DNA from: a virus
Length of the DNA: 24,674 nucleotides
Virus record (IMG/VR): IMGVR_UViG_3300038701_002729
Coordinates: 1 to 24,674 of that record
Direction: 5' to 3' (one strand)
The notes beneath the pieces are model-generated. The model saw only the letters and a list, made by a program, of their open reading frames with translations. It had not been told where the DNA came from and did not search any database. The first letter of the stretch is position 1; every line of letters starts with the position of its first letter. Both the position numbers and the translations under genes were made by a program. Of this stretch, positions 1,258 to 24,674 are shown piece after piece.

Positions 1258-1280
1258 TCACGCCCGATAATGGCGTTTAT
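1258..1280 (+). promoter_or_regulatory. Module-boundary motif, copy 1
   Basis: TCACGCCCGATAA, 6 bases, then TTAT; one mismatch to the 13-base core. It lies 24 bases before the integrase ATG. It has the same genomic orientation as the other eight copies but, unlike them, precedes a rightward gene. Confidence 0.7.
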
Positions 1281-1304: not shown

Positions 1305-2513
1305 ATGACATTACCAGCACAAATCCAACAACCACAACAAATCACAATCACCACTGGCAACAACTGGAGCGGATGGCAACGCTACTTCAATCCAGAGGAT
1401 GCACTACAATCCCTCATCGACCTCGTGGAAATCAAACCGTCCAGCCGCACCGAACGCCACACCATGAAAGCCTATCTCTCAAGCCTCGCCAGCTATGTCA
1501 CATTTTTGGGTGGGGATGCCATCCATGACGGTGGTGAGGATTACACCTGGGACTTCTCCAACATGCAGATGCCCACACTCGCCAATACCCAACGCTACAT
1601 TGCCCATTGCTCGATGACAGGTTTAGCCGCCAGCACCATTCAACGCTATATGGCATCAGTCCGTCACTTCATCAAAGCCCTAGAGCATCAAATGCCCGTA
1701 CCCCAATCAGGCAATGATTTCATGTTCATCATGCAAGCCCAGCATCAATTCAAGGTTGCCCGTGATGTGAAAAACCCTGCACCCACAGCCACAACCTCAC
1801 GCCCCAAGATGGAAACAACCGGGCATCGCCTCGAACTCGAAGAACTCGACCTGCTCTTTTCTTCATTCCGTCCGGGCTTAAACAATCACGACATCACCAC
1901 CATCATGGGCAAGCGTGACATCGCCCTAATCTACCTCGGCATGATTTCAGGTCTACGCGCCTCAGAACTCGCTCGCCTTACCTTGGCAAATATAACCCAG
2001 CAAGATGATGAGAATTATGCTGTCACCGTGCGTGGCAAACGCAACAAATATGACCCCGTCGGCATCGATGCAGAATCAGTCCAACTGATAGAGAATTACG
2101 TTACCGCATGGAATGACACCCTCGCAGATGACGATCCACGTCGCATCACAGCAGATACACCACTATTCCAAACGATGACCAATCACGGCACAATCCCACC
2201 CCTTAAATCGGCAAAGCCAGAGAAAGAAATCTGCTCACGCACCGTCACCCGCCTTGTCGCTCGCCGTGTCGCTGATGCAATTCCAAAGTATGCAGATAAA
2301 TCATTCTCTGCCCATGATATGCGTCGCACCTGCGCCTACATCATGCGTGACCTTGGGTACGAATGGGATAACATCCGCGATAAACTACGCCACCATTCCA
2401 TCGCCACCACCGAGAAATACGTCGGCAAGAAACTCGACCTATCAAAATCCAACTGGACTAAACGTCGCAAATTCAACATCCCATCCGATCCCAACAACAA
2501 ATTACCCCTGTAG
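1305..2513 (+). CDS. int: Tyrosine-family site-specific integrase/recombinase
   Basis: A 402-aa tyrosine recombinase. The N-terminal half (about residues 30-150) is a SAM-like core-binding domain. The catalytic domain (about 175-380) shows R218 in GLRASEL, K245 in a GKRNK turn, the HxxR box H337-R340 (HDMRR), H363 in LRHHS, and the nucleophile Y372 in ATTEKYVG. This set is complete, so the enzyme is predicted to be active. It would cut and rejoin attP and attB during integration. AGGAG (1291-1295) lies 9 bases before the ATG. The gene is rightward and converges on the leftward late cluster, with a bidirectional terminator between them. The N-terminal 25 residues are Gln/Thr-rich and may be flexible. 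XerC/D-like resolution of dimers is a less likely alternative. Confidence 0.93.
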   Translation: MTLPAQIQQPQQITITTGNNWSGWQRYFNPEDALQSLIDLVEIKPSSRTERHTMKAYLSSLASYVTFLGGDAIHDGGEDYTWDFSNMQMPTLANTQRYIAHCSMTGLAASTIQRYMASVRHFIKALEHQMPVPQSGNDFMFIMQAQHQFKVARDVKNPAPTATTSRPKMETTGHRLELEELDLLFSSFRPGLNNHDITTIMGKRDIALIYLGMISGLRASELARLTLANITQQDDENYAVTVRGKRNKYDPVGIDAESVQLIENYVTAWNDTLADDDPRRITADTPLFQTMTNHGTIPPLKSAKPEKEICSRTVTRLVARRVADAIPKYADKSFSAHDMRRTCAYIMRDLGYEWDNIRDKLRHHSIATTEKYVGKKLDLSKSNWTKRRKFNIPSDPNNKLPL

Positions 2514-3526: not shown

Positions 3527-3549
3527 TCACGCCCAATAAAGGTATTTCT
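3527..3549 (+). promoter_or_regulatory. Module-boundary motif, copy 2
   Basis: Perfect TCACGCCCAATAA core, 6 bases, then TTCT. The TTCT end overlaps the stop codon (TAG, 3550-3548) of the lipoprotein gene. Confidence 0.8.
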
Positions 3550-6693: not shown

Positions 6694-6716
6694 TCACGCC
6701 CAATAAAACCCCTTCT
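6694..6716 (+). promoter_or_regulatory. Module-boundary motif, copy 3
   Basis: Perfect TCACGCCCAATAA core, 6 bases, then TTCT. The last base is also the last base of the stop codon (TAA, 6718-6716) of the 151-aa gene. Confidence 0.8.
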
Positions 6717-11315: not shown

Positions 11316-11384
11316 AACTCAAAACCTTGTCGATTAATTGCTGTAAAAAATTGGCCAGAAAAACAGCTCAACACTTCCCCAATA

Positions 11385-11422
11385 ATTCCCTCTCCATTTA
11401 TGGGGAGGGTTAGGGAGGGGTC
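11385..11422. repeat. 38-bp palindromic repeat, short subtype (copy 2)
   Basis: Identical over 38 bases to 2518-2555 and 17003-17040. Its last bases overlap the stop codon of the Dit gene (TGA, 11423-11421). CCCAATAA at about 11378-11385, directly before it, matches only 8 bases of the module motif. Confidence 0.9.
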
Positions 11423-14168: not shown

Positions 14169-14191
14169 TCACGCCTAATAACATCCCTTAT
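14169..14191 (+). promoter_or_regulatory. Module-boundary motif, copy 4
   Basis: TCACGCCTAATAA (one mismatch), 6 bases, then TTAT. It lies 23 bases upstream of the tape-measure ATG, between that gene and a terminator candidate. Confidence 0.7.
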
Positions 14192-14917: not shown

Positions 14918-14968
14918 CAACTATCCTTTCGTATTGAATCAACAAATCAAATTAGCTCATCATGAAAG

Positions 14969-15002
14969 TCCCTCTCCATTTATGGGGAGGGATCTAGGGG
15001 TC
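14969..15002. repeat. Palindromic repeat, variant short subtype
   Basis: CCCTCTCC, ATTTAT, GGGGAGGG as in the 38-bp copies, but the tail reads ATCTAGGGGTC and is shorter. Its last base is also the last base of the major tail protein stop codon (TAG, 15004-15002). Confidence 0.85.
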
Positions 15003-15457
15003 TATGACCAGGTATCTCCATCATATAAATTGCTACGTGGCGTACCACTGCTAATGACCGTCATCTCGATGGTCACTAAGGGTTTATCCACAGCAACTTC
15101 AGGACCCTTAATCTGAGTGATGAGGAAATCTTGGTCATGTTTCAATTTGCCCGAAACATCACCTTCAGGTCCCCACACAATCGGGACAACATTGCCTTGT
15201 TGTGAAATATCGGCAATCGCCGCAATATCCGTATTGATACGGTCAGTGTCATAAATAATCATGATTGTGCCGTTGATGACTTGCAGTTTACCTGCGTGGT
15301 CTTCCCACTCAGTCCCTGCACCACCGGTCACATTCTCATCACCTGTCGATTTCGACATACTAAAGCTCTTGAAAACTTTCTCAGTCGCATCATCAGGGTC
15401 AGCCACAACACGCGAATTAATGCTTAAATAAGCATTATTACTATTAAAAGCAGGCAT
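15002..15457 (-). CDS. Major tail (tube) protein
   Basis: A 151-aa beta-rich protein: MPAFNSNNAYLSINSRVVAD, then KVFKSFSMSKSTGDENVTGG, GKLQVINGTIMIIYD, and ending VTIEMTVISSGTPRSNLYDG. This length and character fit the siphovirus tail tube subunit that polymerises around the tape measure. It sits between the tail terminator and the chaperone genes, the standard order. GAGG lies 7 bases before the ATG. Assignment is by order and general fold character rather than a distinct motif. Confidence 0.8.
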   Translation of the reverse strand: MPAFNSNNAYLSINSRVVADPDDATEKVFKSFSMSKSTGDENVTGGAGTEWEDHAGKLQVINGTIMIIYDTDRINTDIAAIADISQQGNVVPIVWGPEGDVSGKLKHDQDFLITQIKGPEVAVDKPLVTIEMTVISSGTPRSNLYDGDTWS

Positions 15458-16336: not shown

Positions 16337-16718
16337 TTTTCTCTCGCAATCGCTTAATAATCACCTGCACATATGCAGAGTCCGTCATATCATCCATCAC
16401 ATCGACGACCTCATAACGGCGACCATCTGCCATCTCAACCCGATACTCGCCCGCGACAGTCGTCCCGACGGGTAAAATCAACCGATGCTTATCCACCAAA
16501 GTCTCACGCCCACCAGTCAAAGCATTGCTACCATTCATCTGCTGACCAGCACGAATCACACGACAAGAAACACCAGAAGCAGTCACAACCCAATCATTCA
16601 AAGGTTCATTATGTGTACCCTTCGCGTCGCCCTGCTTCAGCAAGGTACAACTATCCGTAAGATAGCGATTCACCATCGCCTGCACCCGTTTAATCGTCCG
16701 CGCTCGTATACCTGTCAT
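16329..16718 (-). CDS. Head closure / head-tail adaptor protein
   Basis: A 129-aa small beta-barrel type protein: RTIKRVQAMVNRYLTDSCTL, NDWVVTASGVSCRVIRAG, DKHRLILPVGTTVAGEYRVE, YEVVDVMDDMTDSAYVQVII. It matches the pattern of phage head-closure (Ad2-like) proteins that seal the portal channel. I use the ATG at 16718; a TTG at 16724 has a closer AAGGG site and would add two residues. The ATG itself lies inside motif copy 5. Position between connector and gp10-like genes is as expected. Confidence 0.78.
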   Translation of the reverse strand: MTGIRARTIKRVQAMVNRYLTDSCTLLKQGDAKGTHNEPLNDWVVTASGVSCRVIRAGQQMNGSNALTGGRETLVDKHRLILPVGTTVAGEYRVEMADGRRYEVVDVMDDMTDSAYVQVIIKRLREKNG

Positions 16719-16737
16719 GCTCAATAATGTCCCTTCT
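16715..16737 (+). promoter_or_regulatory. Module-boundary motif, copy 5 (diverged)
   Basis: TCATGCTCAATAA (two mismatches), 6 bases, then TTCT. It overlaps the start codon of the head-closure gene: the two changes include the base that makes GTG into ATG on the minus strand. Confidence 0.6.
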
Positions 16738-16974: not shown

Positions 16975-17002
16975 TCGAGTGTCCTCACTAAACTATGTTT
17001 AA

Positions 17003-17040
17003 ATTCCCTCTCCATTTATGGGGAGGGTTAGGGAGGGGTC
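17003..17040. repeat. 38-bp palindromic repeat, short subtype (copy 3)
   Basis: Identical over 38 bases to 2518-2555 and 11385-11422. Its final TC is part of the stop codon (TGA, 17041-17039) of the connector gene. Confidence 0.9.
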
Positions 17041-17886: not shown

Positions 17887-17909
17887 TTACGCCCAATAAG
17901 ACGTATTAT
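17887..17909 (+). promoter_or_regulatory. Module-boundary motif, copy 6
   Basis: TTACGCCCAATAA (one mismatch), 6 bases, then TTAT, between the stop of the Ig-like gene (17911) and the GTG start at 17874. ATAA GACGTA TTAT is itself nearly palindromic. Confidence 0.7.
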
Positions 17910-20488: not shown

Positions 20489-20635
20489 CTACGCTGGCAA
20501 AGCATCACACCTCGCCAGTTGCTTTCCTCTCGTCTCACCTTGGCAATGAGCGTCCCCATCCTCCAACACAAAAATCGAGGTCAGCCTACTAATCTCACCC
20601 TCATCATGAAATATCTCACGCCCAATAACGCGCAT
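20489..20635 (-). CDS. Possible 48-aa ORF starting inside motif copy 7
   Basis: An open frame from ATG (20635) to TAG (20489) reading MRVIGREIFHDEGEISRLTS onward and containing two cysteines (AHCQGETRGKQLARCD). There is no Shine-Dalgarno site, and the first seven codons are the motif itself. It fills an otherwise empty 222-base gap between scaffold and the inserted rightward gene. It could be a degraded small gene or chance. Confidence 0.25.
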   Translation of the reverse strand: MRVIGREIFHDEGEISRLTSIFVLEDGDAHCQGETRGKQLARCDALPA

Positions 20636-20638
20636 TAT
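20616..20638 (+). promoter_or_regulatory. Module-boundary motif, copy 7
   Basis: Perfect TCACGCCCAATAA core, 6 bases, then TTAT. It ends 12 bases before the TATAAT of the rightward inserted gene, so it covers the -35 region of that promoter. Confidence 0.8.
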
Positions 20639-20678: not shown

Positions 20679-21179
20679 ATGAATAGTGATTTCGATGCCC
20701 AAGAAATATGGAAACTGACGAAAGAAATTTTAGAACAGTGGGGTGCGATTGAAGTTTGGAACCCTGTTACGGTTGCCAAAGTATACGATGACAAGTACAT
20801 ATATATTGTATCCATATTGCGTCAAGACGGCACAAAATTATTTCATAGTGATATTCGTATTTATATCAAAATGCCAGATAAGAAATTACAAAAGTATCTT
20901 GAAGGGGGAGAAAATCCTACAGAATTACAACGATTCGGATTGCCAACTAAATCTGCGAAGAGTACGCTAATTAAAAAACACACTTTTGTTTATCAGTCTC
21001 TGATAAGTGAAGACGGAATTTGTGACAATTTTTATTTTCGTGCAGGGCAATGGACTTGGTATATTCAAAGACTATCTGATTTTTCAAAGAAACTTCAGCA
21101 AGCAATTCACATTCTTGAATCAGAAGAGGTAGATGATAGAAATTTTTTTGAAGTTGATTGGTCAACTAACCTAATGTAA
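20679..21179 (+). CDS. Inserted rightward gene (moron-like), unknown function
   Basis: A 166-aa soluble protein (MNSDFDAQEIWKLTKEILEQ, VAKVYDDKYIYIVSILRQDG, NFYFRAGQWTWYIQRLSDFS) with alternating strands and helices and many aromatic residues. I do not recognise the family. It is encoded opposite to all surrounding head genes, has its own TATAAT box and a strong AAGGAGAT site, and is clearly richer in A/T and G over C than its neighbours. Its stop lies 4 bases from the convergent stop of the minor head gene. These are the marks of a moron: a recently acquired gene expressed independently, often in the lysogen. A role in superinfection exclusion or defence is possible but not shown. Confidence 0.75.
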   Translation: MNSDFDAQEIWKLTKEILEQWGAIEVWNPVTVAKVYDDKYIYIVSILRQDGTKLFHSDIRIYIKMPDKKLQKYLEGGENPTELQRFGLPTKSAKSTLIKKHTFVYQSLISEDGICDNFYFRAGQWTWYIQRLSDFSKKLQQAIHILESEEVDDRNFFEVDWSTNLM

Positions 21180-21183
21180 GTTC

Positions 21184-22275
21184 CTACCGACGACGATAAT
21201 ACTGACTAGCACCTGCACCTAACACATTTCGCAGACTACCCTCGCGGATCATCGCGCCAAACGTCTCGTCCTCATAGTCCTGCCGAAAATCACGGAGCTG
21301 TACCGCACCCTCTTGGTATGCCTCCCACTTCGCAGGACTTCGCAAAAAACTCGCCTGCTGTTGTTGCCGCTCACGGGGTAAACTCGCAAACCATTGTTCG
21401 CCTGTCACCATGTTCAGCTCACGCCCCACAACCTGAATCACACTCGTACCCCGTCCTTGGTGATGGTCATTCACCCGTGGAATTGGCTCGCCAGCATTCG
21501 CCTCACTATCCCACATCACATCCCCATGCAAACTAACACATGAGAGGCACGTCCGCGCATCGAGCGTCTCCACACGGATAACCCGTCGCGCAATCGCCAT
21601 ATTCGCATTCTGATGAACAGCCGTCCCGTCACGGTATGAAGTCAATTGCAACGTCCGCATCAAATTATTCGCCTGATACAATGGCAAAGTCTCACTCGAA
21701 TCACGCAACACACGCGCAGTCCGTAACGGCGACCACCCTTGAGCAATACCCCCGACAGCCTGCTCACCTATTTGTCGTGGGATGAGACCAGCAAATTCTC
21801 GCTCCAACATCTCACTCCAGCTATTACTCTGGATGTAATTCACAGCCTCAGCCACTGCTTCTGGGTCAGGCGTATTCCACTGCACCCCAACCGCTCGCAA
21901 CTGCGTATCCGTGAAACCAGGTAACGCCAATTGCCTCTGCACCGTACCCGCCGCATCCGAGCCACTCGCCTGCAAGCCCTCCCCTGCACCATCCAGTAAC
22001 ACAGCATTACCTCGCATCACCGTATCAAGGTCAGATAAAAAAGCCCGTAGCACGGGGTCATCCGCTTGGAACTGTTCCCCAGCCTCTTCTAATTCAGCCG
22101 CACGTCGCTCGACCTCTCGCAATCGGGTCTGGAGCAAACTCCCGTCGCGTGTCAGCGTCGATGTAATCCCACGCAAAACAGGAACAGCCTGCTGGTCATA
22201 CCCTCTATCCAGCAAGCCAGTCACCAAATCATTCACGGTCCCTCGACGCGGGTCAGTCTGTCTCGGTGCCGTCAT
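21184..22275 (-). CDS. Minor head morphogenesis protein (Mu gpF / SPP1 gp7-like)
   Basis: A 363-aa protein. The N-terminal half is helical (LREVERRAAELEEAGEQFQA). The Mu gpF-type domain spans about residues 160-285: PLRTARVLRDSSETLPLYQA, RRVIRVETLDARTCLSCVSL with C243/C246, DVMWDSEANAGEPIPRVNDH with H271/H272. Most relatives have a second Cys near 'CRC'; here the segment reads HHQGRGTSVIQ, so the zinc-like cluster may differ. These proteins associate with the portal and act in head assembly. It overlaps the upstream 68-aa gene by 23 bases. Confidence 0.88.
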   Translation of the reverse strand: MTAPRQTDPRRGTVNDLVTGLLDRGYDQQAVPVLRGITSTLTRDGSLLQTRLREVERRAAELEEAGEQFQADDPVLRAFLSDLDTVMRGNAVLLDGAGEGLQASGSDAAGTVQRQLALPGFTDTQLRAVGVQWNTPDPEAVAEAVNYIQSNSWSEMLEREFAGLIPRQIGEQAVGGIAQGWSPLRTARVLRDSSETLPLYQANNLMRTLQLTSYRDGTAVHQNANMAIARRVIRVETLDARTCLSCVSLHGDVMWDSEANAGEPIPRVNDHHQGRGTSVIQVVGRELNMVTGEQWFASLPRERQQQQASFLRSPAKWEAYQEGAVQLRDFRQDYEDETFGAMIREGSLRNVLGAGASQYYRRR

Positions 22276-22459
22276 CTGTCACATCTTCTTCTGGGGATGC
22301 CTCGTCAGTCGCATCAACCTTAATCTTCACAGTGATACTCTTAGCAGTCTCACTCACGCCCACACTCACATTTATCCCATGCGAGACCGATAACTCATTC
22401 TCAATTGCCTGTGCCGCACGTCGCACACGCTTCTTAACCTGCTCAACCACATTCATCAT
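22253..22459 (-). CDS. Small hypothetical protein, 68 aa
   Basis: A 68-aa protein: MMNVVEQVKKRVRRAAQAIE, then two beta strands (NVSVGVSETAKSITVKIKVD) and a very acidic tail (EASPEEDVTDDGTETD). TAGGAG lies just before the two consecutive ATGs. Its 3' end overlaps the minor head gene by 23 bases in another frame. The basic helix and acidic tail are notable, but I cannot assign a function. Confidence 0.6.
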   Translation of the reverse strand: MMNVVEQVKKRVRRAAQAIENELSVSHGINVSVGVSETAKSITVKIKVDATDEASPEEDVTDDGTETD

Positions 22460-23058: not shown

Positions 23059-23081
23059 TCACGCCCAATAAGGACAATTCT
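23059..23081 (+). promoter_or_regulatory. Module-boundary motif, copy 8
   Basis: Perfect TCACGCCCAATAA core, 6 bases, then TTCT, whose last base is part of the stop codon (TGA, 23083-23081) of the 106-aa gene. With copy 9 it exactly brackets the exonuclease cassette. Confidence 0.8.
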
Positions 23082-23401
23082 CAACTGTCAAATATTTTAT
23101 TGGCGAGTCTTCGCATCACTTTCCGCTGTTTCTGATATTCTGGTTTATCGGGGTTCCAGTTATCACCGAGGTATTCTTTAGGAGGAACTGCCATTACACG
23201 TTTTGTTCGATTGAAACTTTCTTCCGCAATGCGCTTCAACCCAAAAGGTTCATCAGGTGACTTTTGATAAACCTTAAGCATGTCCTGAAAATTAAATGAT
23301 TGGATATGGCTAAGTGCTAAAACGGCAAAACGTAATTCGTCATACTCAGGGCGTTCGCCGTCTTTACAAGACTCAATAATTTCGCTAAGAGTTTTAGACA
23401 T
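23081..23401 (-). CDS. Hypothetical protein, 106 aa, exonuclease partner
   Basis: A 106-aa helical protein: MSKTLSEIIESCKDGERPEY, DELRFAVLALSHIQSFNFQD, KRIAEESFNRTKRVMAVPPK, and a basic end KQRKVMRRLANKIFDS. I use the ATG at 23401 (GGAG 8 bases upstream); an overlapping TTG at 23422 would add seven residues. It lies just after the exonuclease gene, separated by 17 bases, and both are enclosed by motif copies 8 and 9. The 'helical protein beside a nuclease' pattern recalls regulators or structural partners, but the function is unknown. It is less C-rich on the plus strand than its neighbours. Confidence 0.65.
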   Translation of the reverse strand: MSKTLSEIIESCKDGERPEYDELRFAVLALSHIQSFNFQDMLKVYQKSPDEPFGLKRIAEESFNRTKRVMAVPPKEYLGDNWNPDKPEYQKQRKVMRRLANKIFDS

Positions 23402-23418
23402 CTCGGTGTCTCCATTTA

Positions 23419-24333
23419 TCAAGGTATTTCTACAGACTGATTCGCTTTAGACATTTTCTTAATTAGATCTAAAGTTGCGACGCAATCACCTAATGCGCCA
23501 TGTGTCCCATTCAGAGGTTGCCACTTATAAGAACCCCAATAACTCGACCATTCACCATAATATTGAGCATAAAACTTCATGGCACAATCGTAACCAAATT
23601 TGATAGGTTCTAAGTCGTGACGGTCACAATCGGCTTCTAACCTTGCTCTATCAAAATCAGCGTTATAAATGACAACTATCTTTTGCTCAATCGCTTGCTT
23701 AATATCCTCATAGACTTCTGCAAATGTAGGACAATCGGCTAAATATTCTAATGAAATACCGTGTACCATTTCCGCTTCGGGATTTATCCCGCCTAATGGC
23801 TTAATCCGTTGGTCAAGGATTGTATTATCCTGCATATCAATGACGGCAATTTCAATAATCTCACCATGCAAATCAGTGGTTTCCGTGTCGAGAATAACTA
23901 CATCCTCAAGTTCCACGATATGTTTAGCCCACTGGATAGCACGGTACTTATCCTCACAAAAGCCACAGACGAAATGATCATAATCATTATCTATCCATTC
24001 CTTGCGTGTAACCAGCCAAGCATCACCATAGCGGTTCGTAACAAGCCCATTGCAGTCTGAGCAACGCTTTTCTAGCTTTTCAGCCATATAACGGGCTTTC
24101 TCTAAGGCTTTAAGCTGTGCTTCTGTAGGTTTTCTTTTTGGTTTAGCTTCACTCATAGCATAAAGGTCATAGTATCCGACATGCTTACCGCGATGGTTAT
24201 AACGCTTCTTTTGTGCAACAGGTTTCTGCTCTTTGGTCAATTTCAAACCAAAGTCACGAGACAAAGTCGTCTTAGTAGCTATACCATCGGGAATATCTTC
24301 CCATTTTGTATATACTGGAATTTGTTCAGACAT
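23419..24333 (-). CDS. DEDDh 3'-5' exonuclease with N-terminal zinc module
   Basis: A 304-aa protein (ATG at 24333; GAGGGG 8 bases upstream; a GTG at 24339 is the alternative). Residues about 91-126 form a CxxC...CxxC zinc knuckle (C91/C94 and C123/C126, with CSDCNG and CGFCED). Residues about 146-295 are a DnaQ-like exonuclease: Exo I with D149 and E151 (ILDTETTD), Exo II with D228 (YNADFDRARL), Exo III with H278 and D283 (GTHGALGDCVATLD). All five catalytic residues are present, so it should degrade DNA or RNA from 3' ends with two metal ions. It sits between portal and fibre genes, far from any visible replication genes, which is odd for such an enzyme. Confidence 0.9.
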   Translation of the reverse strand: MSEQIPVYTKWEDIPDGIATKTTLSRDFGLKLTKEQKPVAQKKRYNHRGKHVGYYDLYAMSEAKPKRKPTEAQLKALEKARYMAEKLEKRCSDCNGLVTNRYGDAWLVTRKEWIDNDYDHFVCGFCEDKYRAIQWAKHIVELEDVVILDTETTDLHGEIIEIAVIDMQDNTILDQRIKPLGGINPEAEMVHGISLEYLADCPTFAEVYEDIKQAIEQKIVVIYNADFDRARLEADCDRHDLEPIKFGYDCAMKFYAQYYGEWSSYWGSYKWQPLNGTHGALGDCVATLDLIKKMSKANQSVEIP

Positions 24334-24351
24334 AGACACTACCCCTCACAC

Positions 24352-24374
24352 TCACGCCCAATAAGCCAACTTCT
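24352..24374 (+). promoter_or_regulatory. Module-boundary motif, copy 9
   Basis: Perfect TCACGCCCAATAA core, 6 bases, then TTCT. Its end overlaps the portal stop codon (TAG, 24375-24373), and its other end is 19 bases before the exonuclease ATG. Confidence 0.8.
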
Positions 24375-24674
24375 ACAACACCATCCCAGGCATATTAAAA
24401 TTCTCCATGCCCGGCACACCCTGACCAGCATCCTGACCATTGCGTTGGGCATCCAGCGAACGTTCTGCGAGCAGACGATCAATATCACGCTCATCATGGC
24501 TCGCAAGACTACTCTGGCTCATCACGCGCAAGCCTTGGCGCACAAACCCATTGCGAATATACCAATCTGCTGATGCCTGAATATCCGCATCATTCCGTAT
24601 CTGGGCATCTTTAAAGCGAGGTGTATAGCTCGTCACTTTGGGTGGCTTATTAATTCCAAAGACTTGTTGTTGCC
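24373..24674 (-). CDS. C-terminal end of a probable portal protein (partial)
   Basis: The frame is open to the right edge, so only the last 99 or so residues are visible, from QQQVFGINKPPKVTSYTPRF to GMENFNMPGMVL. A GTG inside (24636) is not the true start because coding-like sequence continues upstream. The segment is helical (ADIQASADWYIRNGFVRQGL, ERDIDRLLAERSLDAQ) with a flexible Gly/Met-rich tail. Portal identity is inferred from its place directly upstream of minor head and scaffold genes; the visible part has no diagnostic motif. Confidence 0.55.
   Translation of the reverse strand, partial: QQQVFGINKPPKVTSYTPRFKDAQIRNDADIQASADWYIRNGFVRQGLRVMSQSSLASHDERDIDRLLAERSLDAQRNGQDAGQGVPGMENFNMPGMVL

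Follow-up and report, generated by a model that had tools for sequence, protein, structure and literature searches.

In the Mu-like phages of Pseudomonas aeruginosa, variable accessory ORFs occupy fixed positions between core genes, in so-called plasticity regions (PMC4378225). Lambdoid morons are likewise inserted between genes that are adjacent in relatives, deviate in base composition and, in the strict sense, carry a promoter and a terminator of their own. Short asymmetric repeats that lie in intergenic regions in one orientation have been described as stoperators in L5 and Bxb1 and as start-associated sequences (SAS) in the Cluster K phages (PMC3029335, PMC3203893), and the SAS are confined to non-structural genes (PMC3203893).

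The window, by which we mean the whole stretch of DNA analysed here (a virus record of 24,674 bases), contains a late operon on the minus strand that extends from the right end, where the portal gene is truncated, to the gene of an SH3-domain protein at the left; proteins of the head, the tail tape measure and the distal tail can be recognised. Between the portal gene and a decoration-like head gene lies a two-gene cassette, which runs exactly from one copy of a 23-bp motif to another (23059-24374) with both copies in the same orientation (Table 1). The first-pass annotation had recognised here a DEDDh exonuclease with a zinc module and a 106-aa helical protein, hereafter the partner, as well as a motif copy at either edge, both in the same orientation and both overlapping a stop codon. 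The two genes are borne out by profile matches, catalytic residues and a structure model, and both edge copies match the motif with 0 mismatches.

The cassette resembles the cargo of the plasticity regions in that the genes at one fixed position between the core genes vary among the related phages. It differs from the P. aeruginosa case in the phage family and host and in having a phage-wide motif at both edges; in addition, the next module, decoration-MuF, is partly inverted in many of the window's relatives. Like a moron, the cassette is absent between the same genes in relatives and deviates in composition. However, it comprises two genes, its only candidate promoter is the general motif of the phage, and no minus-strand terminator-like site was found at its end (counts equal those in shuffled sequences), so it is not a moron in the strict sense. 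The motif is short, asymmetric, intergenic and of one orientation like the stoperators and SAS, but it lies in the late-gene region, is bipartite (AKAA-N6-core) and has no known regulator. The reading that we favour, with moderate confidence, is that the exonuclease and its partner are accessory cargo in a variable site between portal and decoration-MuF, with the motif as a late regulatory element.

The virus is probably a temperate tailed phage of a Chloroflexi host. The host is assigned as such because a MITE-like repeat of the window (TCCCTCTCCATTTATGGGGAGGG) is abundant in a Chloroflexi genome and genomes of one Chloroflexi class and order carry relatives of the terminase genes and of MuF. 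Searches of viral contigs with the exonuclease, and of both viral and genome contigs with the major capsid protein, revealed no close relatives. Both the repeat and the motif are also present in L011, a viral contig of 12,400 bases in which terminase genes and a 230-aa gene are accompanied by a portal gene that breaks off at the contig end. Placed on the portal of the provirus G327, the fragment from L011 extends to about residue 431 and that from the window starts at about residue 439; we infer that L011 represents the upstream portion of this virus or of one very similar to it.

Table 1. Coordinates of the features discussed; positions refer to the window unless another contig or locus is named.
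Feature	Position	Strand	Remarks
Portal gene, C-terminal part	24373..24674	minus	cut by contig end; stop TAG 24373-24375
Motif copy AGAAGTTGGCTTATTGGGCGTGA	24352..24374	minus	0 mismatches; upstream edge of cassette, overlaps portal TAG by 2 bases
DEDDh 3'-5' exonuclease (predicted), 306 aa	23419..24339	minus	N-terminal RRQRL-like module, four-Cys zinc module, DnaQ-like catalytic domain; start GTG at 24339 or ATG at 24333
Partner, 106 aa, all-helical, phrog_21314 family	23081..23401	minus	ATG 17 nt past exonuclease stop
Motif copy AGAATTGTCCTTATTGGGCGTGA	23059..23081	minus	0 mismatches; downstream edge of cassette, overlaps partner TGA by 1 base
Decoration-like head gene, 153 aa	22536..22997	minus	first gene of decoration-MuF module; 41% identity to same-position G406 gene
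68-aa ORF between decoration-like gene and MuF	22253..22459	minus	from ORF list; 100-aa ORF at same position in G327
MuF-like minor head protein, 363 aa	21184..22275	minus	without C-terminal toxin extension
Antisense 166-aa gene between MuF and scaffold	20679..21179	plus	GC 0.34
Motif copy upstream of scaffold-like gene	20616..20638	minus	0 mismatches
Motif copy upstream of 125-aa gene	17887..17909	minus	1 mismatch
Motif copy upstream of head-tail adaptor gene	16715..16737	minus	2 mismatches
Motif copy upstream of tape measure gene	14169..14191	minus	1 mismatch
Motif copy upstream of 204-aa gene	6694..6716	minus	0 mismatches
Motif copy after SH3-domain protein gene	3527..3549	minus	0 mismatches
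Motif copy near integrase gene	1258..1280	minus	1 mismatch; outlying
Integrase gene	1305-2513		
MITE-like repeat	2514-2555, 11381-11422, 14963-15004, 16999-17040		intergenic
230-aa phrog_20814 gene	L011 1373-2065		
Relative of exonuclease N-terminal module, 138 aa	L011 7081-7497		
Integration module of G431	L170 10143-14629		
Inverted loci	L169 8412-11050, L183 5024-6121, L184 5423-7650		
Inverted loci	L185, L186, L188, L189, L208		
MuF with C-terminal extension and following small gene	L184 5980-7901, L169 9404-11244, L204 704-2487		

The portal-decoration junction in related phages

Relatives were collected by MuF-based searches as provirus loci and 27 viral contigs, and the portal-decoration-MuF-scaffold region was compared in 31 relatives and the window (32 loci). 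Some of the contigs span only a part of this region, the public genomes are drafts, most contigs are fragments and ORF boundaries were set mechanically. The truncated gene at the end of the window is identified as a portal gene by its homology to the portals of relatives (identities of 40% with G406 and 22% with G327). The MuF-like protein scored 0.00098 against Pfam Phage_Mu_F, which is below the family cut-off, and is 36-57% identical to its relatives in the alignment. The label 'decoration' for the 153-aa gene, which has no Pfam match, is one that we infer solely from position and conservation.

Across the 31 relatives, the portal-side gap ranges from -8 to 5928 nt and the scaffold-side gap from 12 to 2283 nt, where a larger value in L194 reflects a permuted gene order in the contig and the negative value in L169 an over-extended ORF. 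Five relatives (L192, L198, L199, L201 and L207) have a closed portal-side junction, their gaps being, in ascending order, 10, 10, 13, 91 and 92 nt, and in G382 the portal and MuF genes overlap and no decoration gene was detected. The provirus G327 carries 5.9 kb of other cargo at the junction, which includes several small genes and a 942-aa AAA_16/TPR protein. Gaps of 1.1-3.6 kb are found in L190, L197, L202 and L203, and those of L190 and L197 contain an SH3-domain protein gene and beta-helix/fibre-like genes. In G431, an integrase gene is located directly upstream of the decoration gene. The portal-decoration site is variable in relatives, being closed, filled with unrelated genes or rearranged, and the cassette is therefore one of several loads.

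That the cassette is accessory cargo is well supported, in agreement with the earlier view that both genes are foreign to the head module. The junction is closed or otherwise loaded in relatives, no exonuclease, partner or motif (at most 1 mismatch) was found in the 31 related loci, and the GC content of the cassette is 0.40, against about 0.50 around it (0.49-0.55 for most neighbouring head genes). Their place between the portal gene and the decoration-like gene, with both of which they share the strand, would also suit a native structural or packaging role in the head module, but neither gene is present here in any relative with a complete junction, their GC is low, and their homologues stand in early, replication or plasmid contexts; we regard a native head function as highly improbable. 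The nearest relatives are just 57-58% identical in MuF, and no close relatives that differ by the cassette were found.

In a separate observation, a tRNA-Pro gene, the integrase gene and two small genes precede the decoration gene of G431, and the contig ends before the portal gene; this integration module may sit at the portal-decoration junction.

At the other edge of the decoration-MuF module, the antisense 166-aa gene is a probable second accessory insertion, and other relatives have methyltransferase or unknown genes at this MuF-scaffold site. The 230-aa gene of L011 (GC 0.41) lies between terminase and portal genes and is followed by a motif copy; it is a probable third insertion, terminase and portal being adjacent in G327 and L183. 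In eight of the 31 relatives, the decoration-MuF segment itself (or just MuF, if a decoration gene was not detected) lies in inverted orientation to the portal and/or scaffold genes. At least three changes are needed on the MuF tree, well-supported branches force at least two, and the clade of the window comprises six inverted and two direct loci. No convincing inverted repeats were found flanking the module. A broader reading would have decoration-MuF as a recurrently rearranging cargo locus loaded at both edges, with the motif in this lineage letting added genes run late while the head genes stay undisturbed, and the exonuclease-partner pair as a counter-defence load; we consider this quite unlikely.

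We also noticed that L184, L169 and L204 carry MuF genes with C-terminal extensions (524-556 aa), each followed by a 71-76 aa gene that is similar in all three. This arrangement resembles the MuF polymorphic toxin-immunity pairs (PMC5576092).

The exonuclease and its 106-aa neighbour

The exonuclease is a DnaQ-type 3'-5' enzyme as judged from homology, from which its activity, substrate and timing are also predicted. It matches Pfam RNase_T (PF00929) with 52.2 bits (1.4e-13), above the family threshold of 24, and PHROG phrog_192 at 6.7e-38. All five DEDDh catalytic residues are present (D151, E153, D230, H280 and D285), as in the DnaQ/DEDDh exonucleases represented by Pol III epsilon and phrog_192, and the closest solved structures are those of Pol III epsilon. 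In contrast to these enzymes, the exonuclease of the window has additional N-terminal RRQRL-like and zinc modules, the latter of the form C-x2-C...C-x2-C (Cys93/96/125/128), and both modules are common to its plasmid and Chloroflexi homologues. The catalytic and Cys columns show no variation in an alignment across three full-length homologues. The N-terminal part scored 37.3 bits (E 3.1e-9) against NCBIfam NF041638 (RRQRL zinc-binding), where the cut-off is 65, and by this profile match it is related to the RRQRL zinc-binding proteins without being a member. A structure prediction from the single sequence was unusable (pLDDT 35). A stand-alone 138-aa relative of the N-terminal module is encoded in the non-structural region of L011 (27% identity over 84 aa, E 2e-9).

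Full-length homologues of the exonuclease (33-39% identity) are present in several genomes of the same Chloroflexi group, where the neighbours, read by eye, are ParA/ParB-like, replication-like and in one case terminase-like genes, and 128 plasmid records match at least 80% of the query. The matches in phages and viral contigs cover the catalytic half only; in the Vibrio/Salinivibrio phages MAR and SMHB1, the relative is located near partition or replication genes.

The partner matches PHROG phrog_21314 over the full length (4.9e-22, profile positions 2-107 of 112). Its AlphaFold model is all-helical with a mean pLDDT of 90, and a fold search with this model gave no structural match at E <= 0.001. 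Relatives were found in Vibrio and Xanthomonas phages and in 19 viral contigs, and none in 396 genomes of the Chloroflexi class in a search without a positive control. The phrog_21314 proteins of the Vibrio phages MAR, VHML and VP58.5 and the Xanthomonas phage KPhi1 are 35-41% identical to the partner over nearly the full length, but they are encoded outside the head operon beside other small genes, those of the Vibrio phages near an adenine methyltransferase gene. The family as a whole is mostly found outside head operons, with several members near DNA methyltransferase genes.

The two genes are adjacent, 17 nt apart, on the same strand and equally low in GC, which would be expected if their products formed one functional unit, be it for anti-defence, for host DNA breakdown or as a regulated nuclease. 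The catalytic domain of the exonuclease also matches the PADLOC DEDDh and PDC-S48 models, and anti-CRISPR genes are located at accessory sites of the Mu-like Pseudomonas phages (PMC4378225). However, these PADLOC matches are generic DnaQ-domain matches, and the pair occurs together here alone. Among the examined loci and within the fetched flanks, no exonuclease was found beside other members of the partner family and no partner beside other exonucleases, so the pairing is probably local. In Vibrio phage MAR, relatives of both are present about 15 kb apart. The co-occurrence data thus lend no support to the co-operation that the first-pass annotation had suggested, and we consider a joint function unlikely.

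A phage-wide motif on one strand

The motif recurs throughout the phage, on one strand and at the junctions of late genes. The window has nine copies (23 bp, up to 2 mismatches) where 0.02 would be expected from shuffled sequences; all nine are on the minus strand, and eight of the 29 late-gene junctions bear one. Alignment of 11 copies, nine from the window and two from L011, gives a consensus of AKAA, six variable bases and then TTATTGGGCGTGA. The L011 copies are located upstream of the terminase and portal genes (flanking TerL and portal), and none was found in the remaining 8.8 kb of that contig, its early/replication part. When viral contigs were scanned for the motif, 12 had a single match, which by a rough estimate is as many as chance would produce; of these only L011 is relevant, since it also has the MITE-like repeat. 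No similar dispersed motif was seen de novo in G327 or G406. A sigma-70 scan gave nothing above shuffled sequences; the motif lies upstream of the cassette.

In the form AKAA-N6-TTAT, the motif contains half-sites in inverted orientation (ATAA/TTAT in five copies) that are spaced by about one turn of the helix, which would suit a putative dimeric binder. A structured RNA was rejected for the motif, as the window has no Rfam match, and so was a host element, as no exact match was found in one Chloroflexi genome rich in the MITE-like repeat.

Multiple asymmetric copies of one orientation in intergenic regions are also the layout of stoperators, as in L5/Bxb1 (PMC3029335). With its 13-bp asymmetric core, its overlap with stop codons and its absence from relatives, the motif could accordingly be a repressor-binding silencer that blocks late prophage transcription, including that of the cassette, rather than a promoter. 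The copies lie, however, in the late region and not in the early/replication part of L011, the AKAA box at a fixed spacing lengthens the site to 23 bp, and no repressor was identified in the available sequence. We regard a silencer as possible, if rather doubtful.

The edge copies of the cassette are identical at 19 of 23 bases, including a 14-bp perfect run, and their flanks match at chance level. A stop codon is also overlapped by the copies at 3527 and 6694, which indicates that the overlap is a trait of motif placement and not of the cassette. With copies scattered over the junctions, 1.9 two-gene blocks with a motif at both ends are expected by chance, and the cassette is one of seven blocks between successive motifs; its bracketing by the motif as such is not beyond expectation.

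The first-pass annotation had proposed that the direct copies allow the cassette to be gained or lost, in which case they would be boundaries at which homologous recombination inserts or deletes it and leaves one copy. The same orientation of the copies exactly at the edges and their 14-bp perfect run would agree with this, as would the motif copies that follow two other probable insertions, at 20616 (after the 166-aa gene) and at L011 1351 (after the 230-aa gene). However, most of the late junctions that carry the motif do so without an insertion, the repeat identity stops at the motif ends, and 14 bp is short for RecA-dependent recombination. No relative was found in which a single motif joins the portal to the decoration gene, and relatives with a closed or loaded site lack it (at most 1 mismatch). 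This absence from relatives is what the annotation itself had counted against exchange, although relatives at such distances (identity of 57-58% at most) would not reveal a recent event in the phage's own lineage. We find exchange through the motif very doubtful, and none of the observations calls for it. As the motif is used at many gene boundaries of the phage, the edge repeats are probably regulatory rather than recombination scars. A transposon or integron origin of the cassette was also rejected, its borders having no recombinase, terminal repeat or extended duplication.

Probable late expression of the cargo and its significance

In the reading that we favour, accessory cargo with a late regulatory element, the motif would mark the starts of late transcription or regulatory units, either as a putative promoter or as a binding site of a phage-specific factor. 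Expression of the cassette, as a single late unit, would then begin at the 24352 copy, and that of the decoration-MuF unit at the 23059 copy. The exonuclease may have been acquired from the plasmid/prophage replication gene pool and would most likely trim or proofread DNA 3' ends in late replication and recombination, and the helical protein would come from a phage DNA-metabolism gene that was acquired separately.

What looked like a mobile cassette bracketed by repeats hereby becomes a testable case of cargo loading within a structural operon, and the phages concerned are those of a bacterial phylum for which few phages have been studied. Because NTPase-TPR, SH3-domain and fibre-like genes are found at this site and DNA methyltransferase genes at the next, it is a practical site at which to seek accessory genes that are new and may serve in anti-defence. 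The motif specific to this phage, in turn, is a direct handle on late-gene regulation.
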